The position numbers were made by a program, and so were the translations under genes. Shown piece by piece: positions 679-11,793 of a stretch of 23,018 bases of DNA (within the stretch, counting starts at the first letter, position 1; every line of letters starts with the position of its first letter). Under the pieces are notes generated by a model. That model saw only the letters and a list, made by a program, of their open reading frames with translations. It had not been told where the DNA came from and did not search any database. Source of the stretch: a virus; IMG/VR virus record IMGVR_UViG_3300021368_001710, positions 1 through 23,018 of that record; one strand, written 5' to 3'.

Positions 679-2217
679 ATGGCAATTGCGAATGCAGCAC
701 TAGCTTACCGTCGTAGTGCGCTAATGACGGCTAGCAGAGTAACAAACAAACCTCCGTCAGAGGAAGTGCTAGCAGCTCGTGACGACTTTCACGCCTTCTG
801 TAAGGCAATGGGTAAGGCACCTGCAAAACATATGCTGGAGTGGCACGTAGAGCTATGTACGGGAGTTGATAGCGAATGTCTACTAGGAATTGGCGGACAG
901 AATACAGCAATCTTGGCACCACGAGGATCTGCGAAAAGCACTGTCCTTGGTTTGTTTGCTGCTTGGATGATTGGGCGTCATGCAGCTGCGAAACAAATGC
1001 TGCGTATTCTGTATATCGCATATATGGTCGATATCAGTCGAGCCAAGTCAGCAACGATTAAAGGTATTCTTACAAGTCCAAAGTATCGGGAAATATTTCC
1101 GATGGTCCGATTATCAAAGATAAAACGGTCAGACGAATACTGGAGTATTGACTATGAGTTTGCGGGGATTGATACGGCGGGTGAAGAAGCATTCACTATT
1201 GCGTGTGGTGGTCTTAAGGGTGCCATCACATCTAAGCGATCACAGTTGGTTCTTATCGATGACCCTATTAAATCCGCTGCGTCAATCAACAATCCGGATA
1301 TTCGCCGTGAAATGGAGCAAACGTGGAGTAACGTTATTGCGCCCACTATGTTCCAAGGTGCACGCGCCATTTGCTTGGGCACCCGCTTTCACTTTGACGA
1401 CATCCACTCCACACTATTTGTACCAAAGAATAATTGGAAACAGATTGTTCAGAAAGCAGTCATAACTGATAAAGAAGGGAGGCAGCGTTCGTATTGGCCT
1501 GAGTTTTGGTCAATGAAATACTTGAACGAACGTAAGATGGAAGACCGAGTTGCCTTCGCTTATCAGTACCTCAATACAGCAGTTCAATCTAGTGACGTTG
1601 GTATATCACCTGACCTCATCGTAAGAGGTGAAGTACCTGAGGAATATGACTGTATAGGCGTAGGTATCGACTTAAGTGCTGGTCTGAACGAAAAAAATGA
1701 CTGGACTGTCTTCACACTTGCGGGCATCTTCAAAGATAAGGTCTACCTGATTGACCAACGCCGATGCCGCACAATGGGCAACATCGAAAAGATGGATACG
1801 TTATGCGAAATGCTTGCTGATTGGAACATTTTGCTAGAGAACGATGAAGGACAATACTTCCCTACTGGCTGCCCGTGTGTCGTATGGCCTGAAGCAGTTG
1901 CGTATCAAACGTCATTTGAAGGTGACTTCAAACGAATTATGTTTGAAGACCGAGCGTTGTATAACCTTCAGTGCTCCCCAGTAAAAGGATTTAGAGGTGA
2001 CAAGCTTGCTCGATTACGTGGAATTTTAGGTTTATATGAACACCGCAAGATTGTTTGGAACAAATGGCGTAAGTGGGATGTATTAGAAGAAGAACTATTA
2101 AACTTCGGGCACGCATCACACGATGACGCAGTCGATTCAATGGTGCTTACTATTGGAGGATTGTTACGTAGAGGTAGCCTACAAGTTGACTACAATAGTG
2201 ATAGCTTTGACTTATAA
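679..2217 (+). CDS. terL: terminase large subunit (packaging ATPase and nuclease)
   Basis: A protein of 512 residues, normal for TerL. It is the motor that pumps DNA through the portal into the prohead and cuts the concatemer. The N-terminal ATPase shows a Walker A motif, APRGSAKST, at 80-88. Walker B is LVLIDDP at 190-196; its two aspartates (194-195) do not fit the usual hydrophobic-DE pattern exactly. A likely coupling motif, LGTRFHFDD, is at 233-241. The C-terminal RNase H-like nuclease begins with the acidic motif GVGIDLSAG (Asp331) and ends with SHDDAVDSM (480-488), the usual last metal-binding motif. Glu405 is a candidate middle residue. The start has no Shine-Dalgarno sequence but has a -10-like hexamer 20 bases upstream. 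The portal follows one gene later, a standard packaging order. Confidence 0.95.
   Translation: MAIANAALAYRRSALMTASRVTNKPPSEEVLAARDDFHAFCKAMGKAPAKHMLEWHVELCTGVDSECLLGIGGQNTAILAPRGSAKSTVLGLFAAWMIGRHAAAKQMLRILYIAYMVDISRAKSATIKGILTSPKYREIFPMVRLSKIKRSDEYWSIDYEFAGIDTAGEEAFTIACGGLKGAITSKRSQLVLIDDPIKSAASINNPDIRREMEQTWSNVIAPTMFQGARAICLGTRFHFDDIHSTLFVPKNNWKQIVQKAVITDKEGRQRSYWPEFWSMKYLNERKMEDRVAFAYQYLNTAVQSSDVGISPDLIVRGEVPEEYDCIGVGIDLSAGLNEKNDWTVFTLAGIFKDKVYLIDQRRCRTMGNIEKMDTLCEMLADWNILLENDEGQYFPTGCPCVVWPEAVAYQTSFEGDFKRIMFEDRALYNLQCSPVKGFRGDKLARLRGILGLYEHRKIVWNKWRKWDVLEEELLNFGHASHDDAVDSMVLTIGGLLRRGSLQVDYNSDSFDL
2191..2196 (+). promoter_or_regulatory. possible -10 element TACAAT inside the end of terL
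   Basis: TACAAT followed by AG lies in the last codons of terL, 29 bases before the ATG at 2226. The spacing is a little longer than in other members. A second TATAAT at 2213-2218 is only 7 bases from the start and probably too close. Confidence 0.25.
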
Positions 2218-2225
2218 TTACCGAA

Positions 2226-3464
2226 ATGGCTCGTAAGAAGTGGAGTAAGCTTACTAAAGCAGAAAAGAAAGCATTTAAAGATGGAGACCGTAATATTGGT
2301 AAGGCGGAGTATAAAGCTCAGCGTCAAGCAAAGCGCCCAGTTACCTTAAAAAAAGGTGCTTCTCAAAGAGTTAAAAATACAGCGACTAAACTTACAGCCG
2401 CGCAAGCCGCAGGTAAGCAGAAGAAATCTGAGAGGTTGGCGGGCAAATTAAAAGAAGCACGCGGTAATCAAGTGCGTAAAAGTGATATCCGTCAAATGAT
2501 GAACGATAACGGCGGGAATATCCAAGCAGTCAGCAAACAATTAAATCAAAAGAATTTACGTTCTGGAGCACAGCAGTTCTTAGCAAACAAACTATCTGCT
2601 CGAACTAACAAATCAGCGACACAAGTAACAAAACCTGTTGAAGCGAAGAAGCCTCAAGCACCTGCAGTAGAAATTCGAGGTGGCGTTAACAATGTAGATA
2701 ATTCAAATAATATTTCTATTGGTACCGGAAACGGAACAGGGACTGTACCTAATCAGCCTCCAGCACGTCCTGACATCGCTCAACCTGGTTTGAGTAATGG
2801 CAATAAGATTACTAGCGAAAGTAATCAAAGAGTTAAGTACAGCGGTATCAATAAGATTGATAATTCGACAGTAATGGGTGGTGTGGGTAATGTTGACAAT
2901 AGCAACAACTCATCATTCTTCCAAGGATCGCAGGCATTCCAACCCTCAACACCATCTGTGCCTGAAGCTGAAAGTGGAGCAACAGCTACACCAATATCGA
3001 ACGTAATCGAAAGCGACAAAACACAAAAAGTAAATTATGGTGGTGAAAATACAATCAACAATTCTTTCATTGGTGGTGGTGTTGGTAATGTAAACAATGC
3101 TGATTATTCAGTAACCATTCAAGGTGGTGGCAGTGGAGAAGGCTTAAGCAACTTCGGTGCCGCTGCGGCAGCTAATGCCTTAAACGAGAATCAATACGAG
3201 CGTTCTCAGTCCAAGGTGACCGGTTCAAGTATTGCTAACAAATATATTGCGAATATGTTAGGTGCTTCAGGTATTACGAATACTATTAACAACGCTCAGA
3301 ACCGCTCAAATCAAGCCCAAGCATATTGGGGTGCTCGTGCCAATCAACAGCGCGATATGGTAATCGGAAACTATATCAAACCCGCTGTCTGGCAGCAACC
3401 AGAACCTCTCAAACCTGTGGAATCGAGGATTGAAGAACTCAGTGAGAAATACGATTTCTCATAA
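2226..3464 (+). CDS. basic repeat protein between terL and portal, function unknown
   Basis: A protein of 412 residues in three parts. Residues 1-150 are Lys/Arg/Gln-rich and look like a helical, nucleic-acid-binding or disordered region. Residues 151-300 carry three copies of a Gly/Asn motif (GGVNNVDNSNN, GGVGNVDNSNN, GGVGNVNNADY) starting at residues 152, 218 and 284, exactly 66 residues apart. A shorter related motif (SGINKIDNS at 206, GGENTINNS at 272) has the same period. Residues 300-412 are Ala/Asn/Gln-rich and end with a charged helix. The repeats suggest short beta strands stacked with a regular step. No signal peptide is present. Position suggests a head or packaging protein; the basic N-terminus could contact DNA. 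The family was not recognised. Confidence 0.7.
   Translation: MARKKWSKLTKAEKKAFKDGDRNIGKAEYKAQRQAKRPVTLKKGASQRVKNTATKLTAAQAAGKQKKSERLAGKLKEARGNQVRKSDIRQMMNDNGGNIQAVSKQLNQKNLRSGAQQFLANKLSARTNKSATQVTKPVEAKKPQAPAVEIRGGVNNVDNSNNISIGTGNGTGTVPNQPPARPDIAQPGLSNGNKITSESNQRVKYSGINKIDNSTVMGGVGNVDNSNNSSFFQGSQAFQPSTPSVPEAESGATATPISNVIESDKTQKVNYGGENTINNSFIGGGVGNVNNADYSVTIQGGGSGEGLSNFGAAAAANALNENQYERSQSKVTGSSIANKYIANMLGASGITNTINNAQNRSNQAQAYWGARANQQRDMVIGNYIKPAVWQQPEPLKPVESRIEELSEKYDFS
2679..3125 (+). repeat. three-copy protein repeat, 66-residue (198-base) period
   Basis: Copies of GGV(N/G)NV(D/N)N begin at residues 152, 218 and 284 of the 2226-3464 protein. The second and third copies are each preceded, at about 12 residues, by a (S/G)G-x-N-x-I-(D/N)NS motif. 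The linkers between copies are not conserved, so this is a spaced structural repeat rather than a recent tandem duplication. Confidence 0.65.
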
Positions 3465-3498: not shown

Positions 3499-5760
3499 AT
3501 GGCTAATCCGACTGGTAATAATCAATTCAACGAAATCCTTAGTGCCGCCAAAGAGCGACGTGGTGACTTACCAGTTGACACTATGATTGTTGCGTCGCAT
3601 CTAGCACAGATGCGAACGTTCATTCTTCGTCGTGGTATTGAGTTTTATACAGAGCAGGATTCATATGGTAAGCGTAAGGAGTTGTTAGCCAAACTCTATG
3701 AAGACAATATGCTGGAGATGAAGCTCGACAGCATTGTTGATTATTTTCTGTGCGACGGTCAGGGATTGTTTTACTTCCGTCCTGCTGGTGATGGATATCA
3801 AATCTTGTACTTCCCGAAAGACAGCTATCGCTGCTATCGGGACCAAACAGGTGAAATCGAAAGCGTTGTACTAATTTATTCGTTCAACGTACGTCAGCCT
3901 TCACTTGTTGATGCGTTCTCTAATCCCGGTGCCCGTGGTGGTAGGAAAAAATATATTAGGCTAAAAGTCTATAAAGACCGTATTGAGCAACTCATTTCAA
4001 ACGAAAAGATTGAGTTCGATGATGAGAACAGCGGTATGCCTAATATGGTACAACCGGGTAATACAGAAACACTTACAAACAGCTTAGGGTTCATTCCTGC
4101 TGTTGAAGTATTCAACCATCTTGACTGTACGGGTCAAGGGCACGGTCGTGGTGAGTTTGATTGGATTAGCAATCAGATTATGTACCACGATGACCTGGTG
4201 CGTAATATCCGCAAGAACATGAAGTTCTTCGGTAATCCTACACTTGTATCTAGCCGACCAAAGCACGACATTATTGAAAGCGGTGAAGACAAACCTTTCC
4301 GTCCCACCATAAGCTCGCAAGCGGGCTTTATGGCGATGGAGAGACCCAGTACAAGGGCTAACCAACCATTCGGCGGAGCGTCTGCATTAGACGGGCAAAT
4401 CAAGGTGCCTAGGGTCATCGCCAACCTTGAGCCTACAGACCGTGTCAGTTATATGACACCTGATAGTGTTTCAGGCGACCAGAATATGTACGTCAAACAG
4501 TACAGGTCTGAAATACGATTGGCACTTGGTGGGGTAGATGATATTGACTTTAACCTTGCTTCGACTGCTTATGAGATTAAAACTCTCTACGGTCGTGTAG
4601 CAGCAACTGCTGAGAAAAAGGCGCGAGCACTATTTCAGTTCGGTTTATGCCGCCTGATGTCAATGATTATCGTACACGAAGAATTCCTGTTCGAAGAATC
4701 GTTTGCTCAAGCCATTGGATTGGAAAAACCAACGATACCTCTGCAGGAGCAGTTTGAAGGTCAGCCAGAAGAGTTTGAAAAAGCTATGGCTGAATATCAA
4801 AAGGCTCAAATCGATTACCTCAACAAGAGAGAAGAAGCCTTCCGTGCTACACTTGAGGCAGGAAATATTCCACCCGGAGTAGTTGGTCTCATCCCTGACG
4901 GAAGCACAAAAGTTTCTTGGCGTTGGATGGGAGAAGTTTTTGAAGATGATTCACAAGACATTCTTAATAACAGTATTGTCGTTAGAAACCTTCAAGAACT
5001 CGGTGTTGATTCTATTGAAGCACTGAAGTATCTATTCCCACAAAAGACGGATGAAGAACGTGCAGCAATGCTGAGCGGCTTCCCCTTCCGGATGGTCCAA
5101 CAATCCCAACAAAGCATTAATCAATTTATCGGTCTGCTCGGTTCTCTATACCAGCTGCCGCATCCACAGACGCCAAACCTTCCGTTGGCATCTGACCCGA
5201 ACCTTGACATTACAGGGTTCTTATATCGTTCATTAGATTTTCTACGAAAGGAGTTAAGTTACAGTGGAACATACAAGCCAAGCAGTAGCGACACCCGCCC
5301 AGACAAGCTCTCCGATGCCGACAAGCGTCGCTCCGAGCTCGGCCTCCCAACCCGCGATGAGCGCCCCGTCCGGTTACCAGGTGTCACCTTCCCAGGCGGT
5401 GCCAGCGGTACAGGCACAAGCGCCGCAGCCCCAGGCTTACCAACAGCAGGCGGCCCCGCAGGCTTCGGTGGGGACACCAGCGCAACAGGCCAATCCGTGG
5501 CAGCAGGCATTCCAGGCGCTCAGCGCAAGTCTGAATTCGCCCAGCCAATCCCAGGCCCAGGTACCACCCTCGGCTTATCAGACGCCGACACCTCAGGTCA
5601 GTACCCAGGCGCAATGGGCTTCACAGGTCCAGGCACCCCAGGTGCAGCCGACCTACTCTCAGCAAGCTTCAACCCAGGCTTATTCGGACCAGGCAGTGCA
5701 GCAGATGCTGGCGCAACAAAGTCAGCAGCAAAGCCAAAGCGCAGCCGTAAGCGCTCCTGA
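3499..5760 (+). CDS. portal protein with a long out-of-frame-overlapped C-terminal tail
   Basis: A protein of 753 residues placed as expected after terL. The portal is the dodecameric ring at one capsid vertex through which TerL packages DNA. The N-terminal 180 residues are mixed alpha/beta. A portal-like core follows around residues 215-247, containing GRGEFDWISNQIMYHDDLVR, then RKNMKFFGNP. A helical region follows to about residue 520. Residues 589-753 are a Gly/Pro/Ala/Ser-rich tail full of PG and AG dipeptides, ending in the basic stretch KPKRSRKRS. All of this tail overlaps the next gene, read one base out of register. Codons in the tail are strongly C- and A-ending, unlike the rest of the gene. 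In known portals the C-terminus faces the capsid interior, so a basic end could touch packaged DNA (inference). The portal call rests on position, size and pattern memory. Confidence 0.8.
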   Translation: MANPTGNNQFNEILSAAKERRGDLPVDTMIVASHLAQMRTFILRRGIEFYTEQDSYGKRKELLAKLYEDNMLEMKLDSIVDYFLCDGQGLFYFRPAGDGYQILYFPKDSYRCYRDQTGEIESVVLIYSFNVRQPSLVDAFSNPGARGGRKKYIRLKVYKDRIEQLISNEKIEFDDENSGMPNMVQPGNTETLTNSLGFIPAVEVFNHLDCTGQGHGRGEFDWISNQIMYHDDLVRNIRKNMKFFGNPTLVSSRPKHDIIESGEDKPFRPTISSQAGFMAMERPSTRANQPFGGASALDGQIKVPRVIANLEPTDRVSYMTPDSVSGDQNMYVKQYRSEIRLALGGVDDIDFNLASTAYEIKTLYGRVAATAEKKARALFQFGLCRLMSMIIVHEEFLFEESFAQAIGLEKPTIPLQEQFEGQPEEFEKAMAEYQKAQIDYLNKREEAFRATLEAGNIPPGVVGLIPDGSTKVSWRWMGEVFEDDSQDILNNSIVVRNLQELGVDSIEALKYLFPQKTDEERAAMLSGFPFRMVQQSQQSINQFIGLLGSLYQLPHPQTPNLPLASDPNLDITGFLYRSLDFLRKELSYSGTYKPSSSDTRPDKLSDADKRRSELGLPTRDERPVRLPGVTFPGGASGTGTSAAAPGLPTAGGPAGFGGDTSATGQSVAAGIPGAQRKSEFAQPIPGPGTTLGLSDADTSGQYPGAMGFTGPGTPGAADLLSASFNPGLFGPGSAADAGATKSAAKPKRSRKRS
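5247..5253 (+). promoter_or_regulatory. ribosome-binding site AAAGGAG for the internal GTG start at 5264
   Basis: AAAGGAG lies inside the portal coding sequence, 10 bases before the GTG at 5264. A TAA at 5255-5257 closes that frame just upstream, so no longer N-terminus is possible. This site decides the start and supports real initiation within the portal gene. Confidence 0.7.
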
Positions 5761-6295
5761 TTCCTACCTGAGCCAAATCTCTGATACTTCTCTGGAAGTT
5801 TTGGAGCACTTTGGTGCTGAAGCTCCGGCTCTTCTCAACCAGTACGCCTGTGCTGTTGAAGATGCCCTGATTGAGCAGGTCCAGCGTGGTCAAGATATGC
5901 ATCTGATGTTGAACGCTGCTGGTGAAGAGCGTGCAGCAATGAACATCATGCTGACCGACCCCGACGTCCTTGCTGATTACGTCAACGAATTCTTCGGTCC
6001 CGAAGGTCCGTATCCGACTGAAACTGCTGAAGAAACCGCTGCTCGTGAACAGTACGAAGCAATGGCTCAGTTCGAATCTGAGATTGAACAGCAGGAACAG
6101 CGTCAAGTTCCTACAAACTTCCAGCGTCCTCAAATGGAAATGCCGACACCTGGTCAACAGGCTCAGTCGCAAGCTGGTGAGTTCTGGGGTAACTTCTCCG
6201 AAATGATGGATACCAACCCTGAGAATGCTTGGCAGTATCTCGCCCAAGCTCCTACTGGCTCCTTCCAAGCCAAGGCTCTCATTCAGGATATGTGA
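5264..6295 (+). CDS. probable scaffold or internal head protein, starting inside the portal gene
   Basis: A protein of 343 residues with a GTG start, an AAAGGAG ribosome-binding site and a stop in its own frame just upstream. Residues 1-165 are low-complexity Gln/Ala/Pro/Ser (many QA dipeptides) and lie entirely within the last 497 bases of the portal gene, one base out of phase. Residues 166-343 do not overlap and look folded: an acidic helical domain with MLTDPDVLADYVNEFFGPEG around 229-248 and an acidic/Gln helix near 255-282. Codons in the unique half are GC-richer than neighbours and resemble the capsid genes, implying high expression. Position between portal and major capsid, helical content and acidity fit a scaffolding or internal core protein. 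This is inference. A shorter form from the ATG at 5705 is possible but has no ribosome-binding site. Confidence 0.75.
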   Translation: MEHTSQAVATPAQTSSPMPTSVAPSSASQPAMSAPSGYQVSPSQAVPAVQAQAPQPQAYQQQAAPQASVGTPAQQANPWQQAFQALSASLNSPSQSQAQVPPSAYQTPTPQVSTQAQWASQVQAPQVQPTYSQQASTQAYSDQAVQQMLAQQSQQQSQSAAVSAPDSYLSQISDTSLEVLEHFGAEAPALLNQYACAVEDALIEQVQRGQDMHLMLNAAGEERAAMNIMLTDPDVLADYVNEFFGPEGPYPTETAEETAAREQYEAMAQFESEIEQQEQRQVPTNFQRPQMEMPTPGQQAQSQAGEFWGNFSEMMDTNPENAWQYLAQAPTGSFQAKALIQDM

Positions 6296-7186: not shown

Positions 7187-7192
7187 TTAGAT

Positions 7193-7207
7193 GCCCTAGA
7201 ATAGGGC
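7193..7207 (+). promoter_or_regulatory. palindrome GCCCTA-GAA-TAGGGC containing TAGAAT before the protease gene
   Basis: A perfect 6-base inverted repeat with a 3-base centre holds the -10-like hexamer TAGAAT (7197-7202), which ends 23 bases before the ATG at 7226. A dyad centred on a -10 would suit a repressor operator. It could also fold as a small hairpin. Confidence 0.45.
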
Positions 7208-7225
7208 GTAGTTAATCATATAGTG

Positions 7226-7771
7226 ATGGAAGAATTTATTGTTGAATTACCATTACACGACGAAGTATATATAGAAACTCCTCACGGAGAAGAGCACAGT
7301 CATAGCGTGATACAAGATGACTTGCTTGGATATTGGATTGACTTTGCGTCAAGACCTATGATGGACGATGGTGTTATTAAGTGGAATAGCACAAGTAAGA
7401 AAGAGCGTAAGTTCCTGAGAAAGGTATTCGCACAACTAGAGGATGATGTAACTGGTCTCAAGTTTAAGAAAGTAAAGAACCCAGAGATTGCGGAAATCCT
7501 CTTTAGGAAGACAGAAAGATTTGAAAATTATTTTACCCTTGGTCGTGCGGAGTGGACGCCAAGAGACCCTAGATGGAAGCTAACAATTCGACACGGTATT
7601 CGTAATCGCCGCAGTACCTTGGTTCACGAACTAGGTCACGCTTTAGGACTAGGACACCCAGAAGATCACAAGGCAGAAACAGATACGATTATGTCATACA
7701 ACCGCGACAAATCATCTCGCTATTTCTTTCCTAAGGACATAGATTACTTGACGGGGATATATTCTTCCTGA
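7226..7771 (+). CDS. metzincin-type zinc metalloprotease
   Basis: A protein of 181 residues with a complete metzincin active site: HELGHALGLGHP at 134-145 (zinc ligands His134, His138 and His144, catalytic Glu135) and a Met-turn, TIMSYN, at 154-159. This matches the matrixin/astacin-like HExxHxxGxxH signature. The upstream 130 residues form the N-terminal subdomain, without signal peptide or obvious propeptide cysteine switch, so it is probably made in the cytoplasm and may be packaged. The gene lies between the portal/scaffold genes and the major capsid gene, where tailed phages often keep the prohead protease. No other protease is visible here, so a role in head maturation is possible. A virion-borne enzyme acting at entry or lysis is the alternative. 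A GTG at 7223 is a near-equal start choice. Confidence 0.85.
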   Translation: MEEFIVELPLHDEVYIETPHGEEHSHSVIQDDLLGYWIDFASRPMMDDGVIKWNSTSKKERKFLRKVFAQLEDDVTGLKFKKVKNPEIAEILFRKTERFENYFTLGRAEWTPRDPRWKLTIRHGIRNRRSTLVHELGHALGLGHPEDHKAETDTIMSYNRDKSSRYFFPKDIDYLTGIYSS

Positions 7772-7777: not shown

Positions 7778-7799
7778 AAAGTATCAGTGAAGATTGCAT

Positions 7800-8756
7800 A
7801 TGTCACAACCAAAACTATCAGGTGATTCCGTTCGTGCCTATTTGCGTGATATCGGACGTATTCCCCTGTTAGAGCACGACGAAGAAATTATGCTAGGACG
7901 CAAGGTCCAACGGTTGATGGAAATCGAAGACCAACGTAAGGAACAAGAGAAAAGTTCTGATCGTAAAATTAGTGATAAGGAACTGGTAAAACTTATCTCT
8001 AGTGACCCTAAGCAATGTATGCGAGAAATCCGTGATGGACGTAAAGCGAAAGACAAAATGGTTACCGCAAACTTACGTCTCGTCGTTAGTGTTGCCAAAA
8101 AATATACCAAGCGAAACATGGAACTTCTGGATATCATCCAGGAGGGCACCATTGGCTTGGTCCGTGGTGTGGAGAAGTTCGATCCTGGTCGTGGTTATAA
8201 GTTCTCTACTTATGCTTATTGGTGGATACGGCAAGGTATCACGCGGGCCATTGCGGAGAAATCGCGGGCAATACGCCTACCAATTCACGTTACAGAGAAC
8301 CTCAACAAACTTAAGAAAGCCCAGCGTGAGTTGAGCCAATTAAACGGTCAGATGCCTAGTGTTTTCGAGCTGTCTGATTATCTGAAGCTGTCAGTAGAAG
8401 AAATCAAAGACTTGATGTGTAAGGCACGTCAGCCCACATCGCTGGAAATCAAGATTGGCGAAAATCGTGATACAGCACTAATCGACCTTCTTGAAGATGA
8501 GACGCAGCTGCCCGATGCCCTGCTTGAACGGCGGTTTATCAAGGACGACATCCGTGAACTCATCAGCCAACTACCTGAGATGCAAGCTGCTGTAATCAGT
8601 ATGCGTTACGGTATTGGTGATGAAATTTTAGAGCCGATGTCGATGACCGCAATCGGTCAAATCCTTAATATGTCACGTGACCGTGTAAGAACACTAGAGC
8701 AAAAAGCATTACGAGGATTGCGTGATATGCGTGAAGAAGTGATTGGTTATTTGTAA
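7800..8756 (+). CDS. cyanobacterial-type group 2 RNA polymerase sigma factor
   Basis: A complete sigma-70 family protein of 318 residues that directs RNA polymerase to promoters. Region 1.2 is at 8-38 (DSVRAYLRDIGRIPLL). Region 2 is at about 84-155, with NLRLVVSVAKKYTKRNMELL, then DIIQEGTIGLVRGVEKFDP and the -10-melting FSTYAYWWIRQGITRAI. Region 3 is at 160-235. Region 4 is at about 245-312, with a helix-turn-helix around 281-305 (AIGQILNMSRDRVRTLE). Region 1.1 is absent. The wording resembles the type II alternative sigma factors of marine picocyanobacteria far more than T4 gp55-like phage sigmas, so host capture is likely. Region 4 keeps its recognition helix. I chose ATG 7800 over TTG 7794 because of codon type and hexamer spacing. 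It may transcribe the phage's late genes. Confidence 0.95.
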   Translation: MSQPKLSGDSVRAYLRDIGRIPLLEHDEEIMLGRKVQRLMEIEDQRKEQEKSSDRKISDKELVKLISSDPKQCMREIRDGRKAKDKMVTANLRLVVSVAKKYTKRNMELLDIIQEGTIGLVRGVEKFDPGRGYKFSTYAYWWIRQGITRAIAEKSRAIRLPIHVTENLNKLKKAQRELSQLNGQMPSVFELSDYLKLSVEEIKDLMCKARQPTSLEIKIGENRDTALIDLLEDETQLPDALLERRFIKDDIRELISQLPEMQAAVISMRYGIGDEILEPMSMTAIGQILNMSRDRVRTLEQKALRGLRDMREEVIGYL

Positions 8757-8789: not shown

Positions 8790-9467
8790 ATGGACGTTAC
8801 TAAAGAAGTAAATAGGTCAATTAATTTGATGGGCGGCAGTGGTGGCACTAACCCCGCCTCTTATGCTGCAAGCAAATCGCTGAACTATGCCAAGTCAAAG
8901 AACAGCCTGCTTAACGCAGCGGAAGAGAAAGTTACTGCCATTCCTTACACGCTGAACTACAAAGATAGCGTTGGTTTGTTCGGTGCTGAAAATGTATTTG
9001 TAAAGGTTCAGCTAAATATTCAAAGCGCACGTTCTGCCTTTACTAATATTCAAACACCAGAGAACGACTATATGCCAGTATGGACGTTCCCCGAAACAGA
9101 TCTAATCAATTTCTACGAGACTGGGGAATTTAACTTCGGTCAAGACTTCAGTCCAGTAAATACATATGACCCAGCAACGATTAGCAATGATCTATCTGCT
9201 TATCAAATTCCGTATGTCCGTGTTGACTTAGCGAATTTGAAGACAGGCAATAAGTATATTGATAGCTGGTTCGACGCTCGCATCTACACAAAGGATAGAA
9301 AGGAATATGAATACGACACTATTTATATGGGTATTAACGATTATTTTTATCTAGGGTTCCACGCAAGAAATACTCGCCGCTTACCGTACAACGTTGAAGT
9401 GACGATTGGCGACGAGTATTTAGAGTTCTATGATATGACTGATGCTCAGCGAAGAATGACTGCTTAG
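8790..9467 (+). CDS. hypothetical protein, possible virion component
   Basis: A protein of 225 residues. Residues 1-50 are Ser/Gly/Asn-rich and flexible (GGSGGTNPASYAASKS). Residues 55-225 are rich in Tyr, Phe, Asp and alternating hydrophobics, suggesting a beta-sandwich (for example YIDSWFDARIYTKDRKEYEY). There is no Cys, signal peptide or membrane segment. It has its own -10-like hexamer 25 bases upstream. Its stop overlaps, tail to tail by four bases, the stop of the minus-strand gene at 9464, leaving no room for a terminator between converging transcripts. A minor structural role is plausible. No family was recognised. Confidence 0.6.
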   Translation: MDVTKEVNRSINLMGGSGGTNPASYAASKSLNYAKSKNSLLNAAEEKVTAIPYTLNYKDSVGLFGAENVFVKVQLNIQSARSAFTNIQTPENDYMPVWTFPETDLINFYETGEFNFGQDFSPVNTYDPATISNDLSAYQIPYVRVDLANLKTGNKYIDSWFDARIYTKDRKEYEYDTIYMGINDYFYLGFHARNTRRLPYNVEVTIGDEYLEFYDMTDAQRRMTA

Positions 9468-10018
9468 GAAGCAGCTTCAATCTCCTTACATTCTTTCAAG
9501 ATCTCAGCCTTAAGTTTATTGTCAATCAAGTCGTGGCCTTGCTCTAAAGCCCAGTCAAGAAGCTGCTGCTTAGTCATATTATCTAAGTTAACTTTGTCAG
9601 TCTTTACGACAATGGTAGGAACCTCAGGTACAACTGGAGAAGGAATACCAGCAACCGTACGCTTTAGAACAGACCCACCACTGATTTTGGAGAACTGATA
9701 TTCAACTAACAATTCAGTGCTGTTTTCCGCAACGACAGCAACACGATCGAGACGACAAACGGGGAAGGTAAAGTTACCAAAACCGTCGTGCCTGATTTCA
9801 AGTGTCATTCGATCAACAGCTGGGACAATCAGCCGAACGACAACACCATTCTCAAGAGTAACTTTGAAGATGGCGCAATCAATATAAGCACCGGGCTTTT
9901 TATTCCACCAACGCGGAAACTTACTGAAGTTGCCTGCTTTAGGCATAACAAGCTTAATGCCGTCACCTGCGTTAGAAGCAACAGTTTTGCCGCCTTTGTA
10001 AACAACTTTATCGGCCAT
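9464..10018 (-). CDS. hypothetical protein with C-terminal HeH/SAP-like segment, on the minus strand
   Basis: A protein of 184 residues. Residues 1-122 look beta-rich (YIDCAIFKVTLENGVVVRLI around 45-64). A Pro/Val linker follows at 124-146. The end, NMTKQQLLDWALEQGHDL plus a second helix to about 180, resembles the helix-extended-helix/SAP type modules often found at the ends of phage proteins and linked to nucleic-acid binding. It is read opposite to the surrounding structural genes, six bases downstream of the HNH gene, so the two are probably co-transcribed. Its stop overlaps the stop of the 8790 gene. It may be a cargo gene carried with the endonuclease or an original phage gene reversed with it. 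The function is unknown. Confidence 0.65.
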   Translation of the reverse strand: MADKVVYKGGKTVASNAGDGIKLVMPKAGNFSKFPRWWNKKPGAYIDCAIFKVTLENGVVVRLIVPAVDRMTLEIRHDGFGNFTFPVCRLDRVAVVAENSTELLVEYQFSKISGGSVLKRTVAGIPSPVVPEVPTIVVKTDKVNLDNMTKQQLLDWALEQGHDLIDNKLKAEILKECKEIEAAS

Positions 10019-10024
10019 TAGATT

Positions 10025-10534
10025 TTATTCAATACCTGTATCTATTTTAGACTGTTTCTCTTCCGCACGTTTACGTCGCATGTAATCACGCTTAGCTATG
10101 CGTTGACGCTCTTTGTAGGCAGCTTGTTGCTCCGGAGTGTTTTTAGGACGTCGCTTGTAGGGTAGCTTTGTATTGTTCTCTTTCCAACTAACCCAACGTA
10201 AATTATCAGCAGCTGGATTAGTCTTGTCTTCGTCAATATGGTCGACGATGGTGCATCCCTTTCCCTGACCATAAGGAGTTGGTGGATTACCCAGGAATGC
10301 AAAGGCAACTAGCTTATGGACACAAACATCTAACTTTTTACCTTTACCAATCCTTTGTGTGAGGCATACAGTTGGATAACCAGCTTTATGAGGACGCCAC
10401 TTTAATATGCGGTCTGTTTTTTGTTTAGTTGAAAGTACCTGACCTTGACGATTTACGTAATATTCAATACAAGCTTCAAACCCAGGAAGTGTATGCACAG
10501 GCACCCATTCCTGTGTATCAATAAAGCGCTCCAT
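10025..10534 (-). CDS. NUMOD4/HNH homing endonuclease, on the minus strand
   Basis: A free-standing HNH nuclease of 169 residues. The N-terminus resembles NUMOD4: EWVPVHTLPGFE (9-20) and YYVNRQGQVLS (25-35). The HNH core follows, with VHKLVAFAFLGNPP (72-85) and VDHIDEDKTNP...NLRWVSWKEN (97-120). The HNH core includes His99 and the Asp98/Asp101 surroundings, and the Asn-Leu-Arg-Trp end is typical. The C-terminal 45 residues are strongly basic, suited to DNA binding. Such enzymes cut a site in related phages lacking the gene and spread by repair-based copying. It sits just upstream of the major capsid gene on the opposite strand, a common kind of site for homing genes near conserved head genes. 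It heads a two-gene minus-strand unit with the 9464 gene. All expected motifs are present, so it is probably active. Confidence 0.92.
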   Translation of the reverse strand: MERFIDTQEWVPVHTLPGFEACIEYYVNRQGQVLSTKQKTDRILKWRPHKAGYPTVCLTQRIGKGKKLDVCVHKLVAFAFLGNPPTPYGQGKGCTIVDHIDEDKTNPAADNLRWVSWKENNTKLPYKRRPKNTPEQQAAYKERQRIAKRDYMRRKRAEEKQSKIDTGIE

Positions 10535-10644
10535 ACGTATATTCGGGAAACTTAATCACACACTAAATATAGCTATTAACATCTAAATATGTGACTATGT
10601 CGAAGTCACTTATATAACCATTTAGCTTACGGAGTTAGATCCCA
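10535..10644. promoter_or_regulatory. divergent control region between the HNH gene and the major capsid gene
   Basis: Contains two copies of CTAAATAT (10563-10570 and 10583-10590), 20 bases or about two helical turns apart. It also has a perfect inverted repeat, GTGACT (10591-10596) with AGTCAC (10604-10609), then a TATATAAC -10-like box (10611-10618). A GGAG ribosome-binding site (10631-10634) lies 10 bases before the capsid ATG. Read in reverse, TATATT near 10566-10571 could be a -10 for the HNH gene. The dyad sits where a regulator or a sigma factor's upstream contact would lie. Confidence 0.5.
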
Positions 10645-11793
10645 ATGTGGATTGACAACGACTTTCCCAAGCTTCTTGGTGCAGAACTCTACCGTCCTCA
10701 TCCTGCTTACATCATTGAGATGGCAGTTGAGCCCGTAGTTGTACACGATTTCTCGAAGCAGCCTGGTCAAACGGTGCAGCTCGATCGGTACCGCTTCTGG
10801 GGTAAGCCTGGCACCAAGGAGTCCCGTGAGCGGACCGCCGACCAAACCCTCGGCACAGCTTCCGCCCGCAACATCGTGAAGGACAAGGTGCTGGTCACCC
10901 TGCGTGAATACACCGGTCCCGCTGATACTCGCGATTCCGCCCAACCCTCTACCTTCAAGGTCGCTCGTGAGACCCTGATTACTGCTCAGCGTCTGCTGCT
11001 TGATACCGGCAACCTGAACGTCTTCCATCAGAGCATCGGTTCCTTGACCCTGTTGGATGACTACCGCCGCTGGCGCGACCGTGTGTTCGCCAACGAACTG
11101 CTGAAAGCCGAAGCCAACGGCAAGGCTGATGACGAGCAAGGCGGCTACTACCTCCCCGGCGACAAAGCCAAGGGCGGTTCCGGTGGCACCCTGGGTGTGA
11201 CTTATGACTCTGGCGAAAGCGCCAAGTTCGACGTCACCACCGACCTGCTTGAAGTCGTCAAAGATATGCGTAAGCGCAACGTGCCTACGTTCGCTGACGG
11301 CTACTACCGCTGCATCGTGGATCCGACCGCGATGATGCACCTGCGTCAGAACTCTGACTTCCGCGAGATTGCTCGCTATCCGGGCCAAGGGATGATTAAT
11401 CCTATGCAGCCCAACGCAGCTCCCAACGCCAACTTCTACCAAGGTATGGGTCCTGCTTACGGTCAAGCCGGCTTCGTTGCTGGTCAACCCGTGATGCCGA
11501 CTGGCTTCCTCTTCGAGGGTGTCCGTTGGTTCGAGTCCACCAACCTGCCTGAGACTTCCTACAACCTCGTGGTTACCGATGCCGCTGCTGGTGCTGCTGA
11601 TTACGGCGCTTCCCAGCTGATCTTCTTCGGTCCCCAGGCTGTTGGTGTGGGTATCGGTGGAAACAACGCTCAAATCCTGTTGAACAACAACGACGACTTC
11701 AGTCGTTTCATCATCATGATCTGGAGCCTGTTTGCCGGTTTTGAAGTGCTGAATAAGGACTTCATCACGGTTGGTTACTCTTTCGTTTATTGA
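10645..11793 (+). CDS. major capsid protein (N4 gp56-like, HK97 fold)
   Basis: A protein of 382 residues, close to the usual length of N4-type capsid proteins. It builds the icosahedral shell. Family-like features are an N-terminal arm entering a helical/beta region, GYYRCIVDPTAMMHLRQNSD (219-238) followed by FREIARYPG, and a C-terminal P/A-domain strand region (RFIIMIWSLFAGFEVLNKDF, 354-373). There is no cleavable delta domain, which fits families that mature without large N-terminal removal. Codons are strongly biased and GC-richer than neighbours, and a GGAG ribosome-binding site is present, both expected for the most abundant virion protein. It has its own control region and probably shares a transcript with the next gene, ending at the 12402 terminator. 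The N4-type assignment is from pattern memory. Confidence 0.85.
   Translation: MWIDNDFPKLLGAELYRPHPAYIIEMAVEPVVVHDFSKQPGQTVQLDRYRFWGKPGTKESRERTADQTLGTASARNIVKDKVLVTLREYTGPADTRDSAQPSTFKVARETLITAQRLLLDTGNLNVFHQSIGSLTLLDDYRRWRDRVFANELLKAEANGKADDEQGGYYLPGDKAKGGSGGTLGVTYDSGESAKFDVTTDLLEVVKDMRKRNVPTFADGYYRCIVDPTAMMHLRQNSDFREIARYPGQGMINPMQPNAAPNANFYQGMGPAYGQAGFVAGQPVMPTGFLFEGVRWFESTNLPETSYNLVVTDAAAGAADYGASQLIFFGPQAVGVGIGGNNAQILLNNNDDFSRFIIMIWSLFAGFEVLNKDFITVGYSFVY

Follow-up and report, generated by a model that had tools for sequence, protein, structure and literature searches.

Can two neighbouring head genes of a cyanophage share about 500 bases and each be translated there in its own frame? The question is raised by the window, a virus record of 23,018 bases whose closest annotated relative is Synechococcus phage S-EIV1; the S-EIV1 group is present in ocean viromes too (PMC5332604). 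Two open reading frames of the plus strand are concerned. The first (3499-5760) encodes a portal protein of 753 residues, assigned to PHROG 20475 (head and packaging) and supported by Foldseek and VIA comparisons. The second (5264-6295) begins with GTG, encodes 343 residues, has relatives in 186 loci and by its inferred role is a probable scaffolding protein gene. It is read in the +1 frame relative to the portal gene, and the overlap of 497 nt (5264-5760, plus strand) corresponds to portal residues 589-753 and to residues 1-165 of the second protein. Both frames, the length of the overlap and the one-base phase shift are all present as originally predicted.

Conservation of the overlap and selection in its two frames

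The amino acid compositions of the two overlapping segments had been proposed to explain each other, and this holds: Gly, Ala, Ser and Pro in the portal stand against Gln, Ala, Ser and Pro in the second protein, and a C in the third position of a portal codon is the middle C of a codon in the other frame. When either protein of the window was held fixed, the other frame remained free of stops in 0.2-8% of codon or synonymous shuffles (0.1-7% when the same test was averaged over 130 loci), so a single locus is only moderately surprising and openness alone is weak evidence. The third frame of the overlap contains five stops on average.

We therefore rely on relatives, of which 188 distinct complete loci, reaching down to about 45% portal identity, were collected from four viral scans (best 80 each), one genome scan and the S-EIV1 record. 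In 186 of them, from many samples, the +1 overlap is kept, with lengths of 443-704 nt and a median of 512. The two exceptions are frame-broken assemblies: in L075 a one-base shift within the overlap swaps both frames, and in L152 the portal is broken by frame changes. L029 carries a stop within the portal core. No relative devoid of the overlap was found in the four viral scans (best 80 each) and the genome scan, at portal identities of at least about 45%. Some relatives (L162-L166) lie on contigs assigned to MAGs of unrelated bacteria (Rhodobacteraceae, Blastopirellula, Crocinitomicaceae), probably through binning contamination.

The original prediction had named an indel near position 5260, or homologous portals ending before the second start, as findings that would speak against it. 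Neither was encountered, as the portals read past the second start in all but the two broken loci. The contig of the window is metagenomic and frame-broken relatives do exist, but the same arrangement recurs in 186 assemblies, including the isolate genome of S-EIV1, and the chance that an assembly indel or a sequencing error has fused or shifted the frames is negligible.

Selection was estimated in close pairs of relatives by classing possible and observed changes by their effect in both frames, using our own OLGenie-style script with Jukes-Cantor correction. In 18 pairs, changes that alter both proteins had a rate of 0.063 and changes that alter neither a rate of 0.83; between these values lay the changes silent in a single frame, at 0.132 when that frame was the portal's and 0.203 when it was the second gene's. 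The omega values for three clades were 0.44, 0.49 and 0.58 for the portal and 0.29, 0.34 and 0.28 for the second protein, with every 95% interval below 1, and transitions and transversions, taken separately, concur. The test for purifying selection suggested with the prediction thus gave a positive result for both frames. Among the controls, omega was 1.2 for the portal phase beyond the portal stop and 1.2-1.8 for the third frame against the second gene; in the portal core, where it is a non-coding frame, the second gene's phase gave 0.67-0.70, which indicates that the site-class counts are somewhat biased. Conservation of the +1 overlap in nearly all relatives, together with purifying selection in both frames, rules out a chance open reading frame as well as an assembly indel. 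Judged from these sequence comparisons, the region 5264-5760 is almost certainly dual coding.

The constraint is unevenly distributed. The stretch that is tightest in both frames (5492-5581, plus strand) encodes residues 77-106 of the second protein (NPWQQAFQALSASL...) and residues 665-694 of the portal, with sliding omega values of 0.07 and 0.27, respectively. In the portal frame, constraint extends from residue 590 to about residue 739, and the last 30 codons are almost free, their composition being kept and their sequence not. The last 15 residues (5713-5757, plus strand) form a basic end with an excess of Lys and Arg: on average 6.3 such residues are observed where the second protein alone would lead one to expect 2.7, and the expectation is exceeded in 185 of the 186 loci. 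The position of the portal stop varies (before DSYLSQ or inside YLSQISDES), the basic end being kept. L098 is the sole locus with fewer than four Lys and Arg among the last 15 portal residues; a TGA at 7191-7193 ends its portal tail early, and the frame beyond still reads TGRSISSRPRSRS (RPRSRS), a basic end.

These data bear on the proposal that selection acts on the second protein alone, the portal frame being passively open because Gln, Ala, Pro and Ser codons rarely make stops, and the tail an unselected read-on. Among shuffles restricted to the second protein's own codons, about 5% do give a stop-free portal frame, and over its last 30 codons the portal has an omega close to 1. However, the portal values in the three clades contrast with that found past the portal stop, the basic end exceeds expectation almost without exception, and motifs of the portal, among them DLQSPSFNPGL and PxPG, are retained across clades. 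We consider an unselected tail very improbable.

Codon usage in the portal frame is closer to the background in 75 of 80 clade A loci, in 54 of 72 loci of the S-EIV1 clade and in 14 of 34 clade B loci; as the preference is split by clade, codon usage does not reveal which end is the later addition.

Initiation of the second gene

The inner frame has an initiation signal of its own. A Shine-Dalgarno-like AAAGGAG (5247-5253) lies 10 bases 5' of the GTG start codon (5264-5266), and a TAA (5255-5257, like the other two on the plus strand) stops the second frame there and blocks read-in from upstream; the ribosome-binding site and the stop had both been predicted, and both were confirmed. The TAA is retained in relatives within the invariant AAGGAGYTAAGTTACAGTG. 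The homologous start is GTG in 82 relatives and ATG in 104, with a shift of one codon between clades. In 80 relatives of the GTG type the portal codons AAG GAG (Leu TTA/CTA) AGT TAC AGT GGA are otherwise free of silent change, and invariant residues adjoining this start context do carry silent changes; since the group was chosen partly by AAGGAG, the independent evidence is confined to the rest of the start context. In relatives of the S-EIV1 clade AAAAGGAG precedes the ATG, and clade B has a weaker Shine-Dalgarno sequence with a GAG-type match. Close to the portal stop, no start codon was found that most relatives share.

Fusions produced by frameshifting are known in phage structural genes, and the order of the two genes and their +1 relation would suit expression of the second frame by +1 ribosomal frameshifting, yielding a fusion of the portal and the second protein with no internal initiation. 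Because the TAA closes the second frame before its start, such a shift would be possible only inside the overlap. The absence of silent change in the Shine-Dalgarno sequence and start context, as well as the constraint on both frames across the overlap from the first codons, argue against this scenario, which we regard as highly unlikely. A programmed +1 frameshift product would have no start of its own; here a stop precedes a start whose context is conserved.

Independent internal initiation of the second gene is, from these sequence features, very probable. Two ribosome populations would then share some 500 bases. Those coming from the portal start would read on to 5760 and add to the portal a disordered tail, rich in Pro, Gly and Ala and ending in basic residues. 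The others would start within the portal gene, at AAAGGAG-N10-GTG 5264, and produce the protein of 343 residues, presumably composed of 165 residues rich in Gln, Ala, Pro and Ser, with one short conserved helix, followed by an acidic helical part. With separate initiation the second protein could exceed the portal in amount, as a scaffold requires; a high scaffold-to-portal ratio becomes possible, as in phage P22, where a portal dodecamer goes with 60-300 copies of the scaffold (PMC9320234).

The portal tail and the putative scaffold

The portal fold, with wing, stem and clip, was matched against solved portals by Foldseek (E 3.9e-11) and by VIA (Z 15.9, 264 residues, rmsd 6.0, 12% identity), and the top matches listed are portals or portal-tail complexes. 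The predicted identity of this protein is thereby borne out by its fold. The match to solved portals extends to about residue 590; the fold occupies approximately residues 8-590, is followed by an extra tail (589-753) and ends where the overlap begins. Portal residues 621-753 have pLDDT values under 50 and lack a fold. The overlapping parts of both proteins, mostly of low confidence in the models, are probably disordered. A sequence search of solved structures with either protein returned nothing useful.

The model of the second protein contains helices only and is poor (pTM 0.21). Its folded part had been expected to start just beyond the portal stop. This agrees with the main helices, which begin at residue 174, but not with a conserved helix at residues 78-90, which the model places inside the overlap. 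The part formed by residues 166-343 is acidic, with a net charge of -25. The protein has no match in PHROG, Pfam or solved structures, the fold search having been made with the model mentioned above.

A scaffold is the most likely identity because the second gene follows that of the portal and precedes that of the major head protein (10645-11793, plus strand; PHROG 1357, E 1.9e-17). Gene order, acidity and helix content together make this assignment reasonably likely. The protein could instead be real but serve as a minor capsid, internal virion or head-completion protein. The lack of any PHROG, Pfam or solved-structure match is compatible with this, as is the presence of other small genes between the second gene and that of the major head protein; its place directly after the portal gene, the acidic C-terminal part and the helix-only prediction fit scaffolds, and we consider the alternative rather unlikely, though worth bearing in mind.

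If the second protein is a scaffold, the charge of the portal tail may be relevant. The C-terminus of portals points to the capsid interior, and for this reason the basic end of the tail would probably contact the acidic scaffold while the procapsid is assembled, or DNA afterwards. We suggest tentatively, at slightly under even chances, that the tail acts inside the capsid on one of these partners. In P22, the scaffold drives assembly of the portal ring and both nucleate the procapsid; the same work reports no gene overlap and leaves the scaffold contact site on the portal undefined (PMC9320234). A more speculative and, in our opinion, improbable extension is that the two disordered segments, both encoded by this stretch, bind each other or belong to one nucleation complex, the basic tail meeting the acidic scaffold and the shared DNA locking the alleles together. 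If this were true, recombination could not separate a matched portal-scaffold pair.

Taken as a whole, translation of the region in two frames, with internal initiation, a scaffold as the second product and a portal tail in the capsid interior, is in our judgement, with good confidence, the best explanation of the locus.

Known overlaps, annotation and neighbouring genes

The homologous gene pair of S-EIV1 (L082, KJ410740.1; AHV82224 / AHV82225) overlaps by 554 nt, also in the +1 relation. The full frame of its second gene (59287-60264) encodes 325 residues; the record lists it only from 59863, that is the last 133 residues, and the gene as annotated falls outside the overlap. Annotation can thus cut such genes to less than their full length.

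In phage lambda, the Nu3 scaffold is nested in frame within gene C, arises by internal initiation and shares the sequence of C. The locus studied here resembles C/Nu3 in that a putative scaffold gene starts within the preceding head gene. In-frame nesting of this type does not apply, the frame difference being +1 in the intact relatives.

Out-of-frame overlaps as such are known. In tailed phages the genes of the two-component spanins, Rz/Rz1, are the classic case: they overlap out of frame, often in the +1 relation, and gene callers often miss one partner; they are lysis genes, the mature Rz1 of lambda has 40 residues, and embedded, overlapped and separate forms exist (PMC6139136). As in Rz/Rz1, the pair described here consists of phage proteins that are presumably linked in function and are encoded out of frame, one of them Pro-rich and probably unstructured. 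In contrast to Rz/Rz1, head genes are involved, about 165 codons are shared and no separate form was found among the relatives. The +1 overlaps of virus reference genomes have a median length of 14 nt (IQR 8-26) (PMC8903798); the frame relation is the same here, whereas the length is 443-704 nt. We found no report in the open-access literature of an out-of-frame overlap between a portal gene and the head gene that follows it. To our knowledge, a lineage-fixed overlap of this length between a portal gene and an adjacent head-assembly gene has not been described.

A long region that is almost certainly dual coding is fixed in a widespread cyanophage lineage whose genomes, near 80 kb, have little need to save space, and it links the portal to a neighbouring head-assembly gene. 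The relatives provide a large natural data set on two probably disordered proteins that share one sequence, and in S-EIV1, a cultured phage, it can be tested whether the portal and the scaffold are locked together in their evolution.

The portal gene is close to that of the terminase large subunit (679-2217, plus strand; PHROG 38, E 2.4e-70) as well as to the major head protein gene. A gene for 412 residues (2226-3464), which has no PHROG or Pfam match, lies between those of the terminase and the portal. A protein of 182 residues (7223-7771) matches matrixin-like metallopeptidases (Peptidase_M10, E 5.2e-07), and its gene sits in the head gene cluster, a frequent site of the prohead protease. 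A gene for a Sigma-70 factor with regions 1.2 to 4 (7794-8756) is also located within the structural cluster. Endonuclease VII-like and HNH endonuclease genes occupy the minus strand at 9464-10534, after the scaffold region and before the gene of the major head protein, and this pair is possibly a homing insertion. An open frame of 348 codons on the minus strand (10627-11673) runs antisense to the major head protein gene and is probably mechanical in origin.
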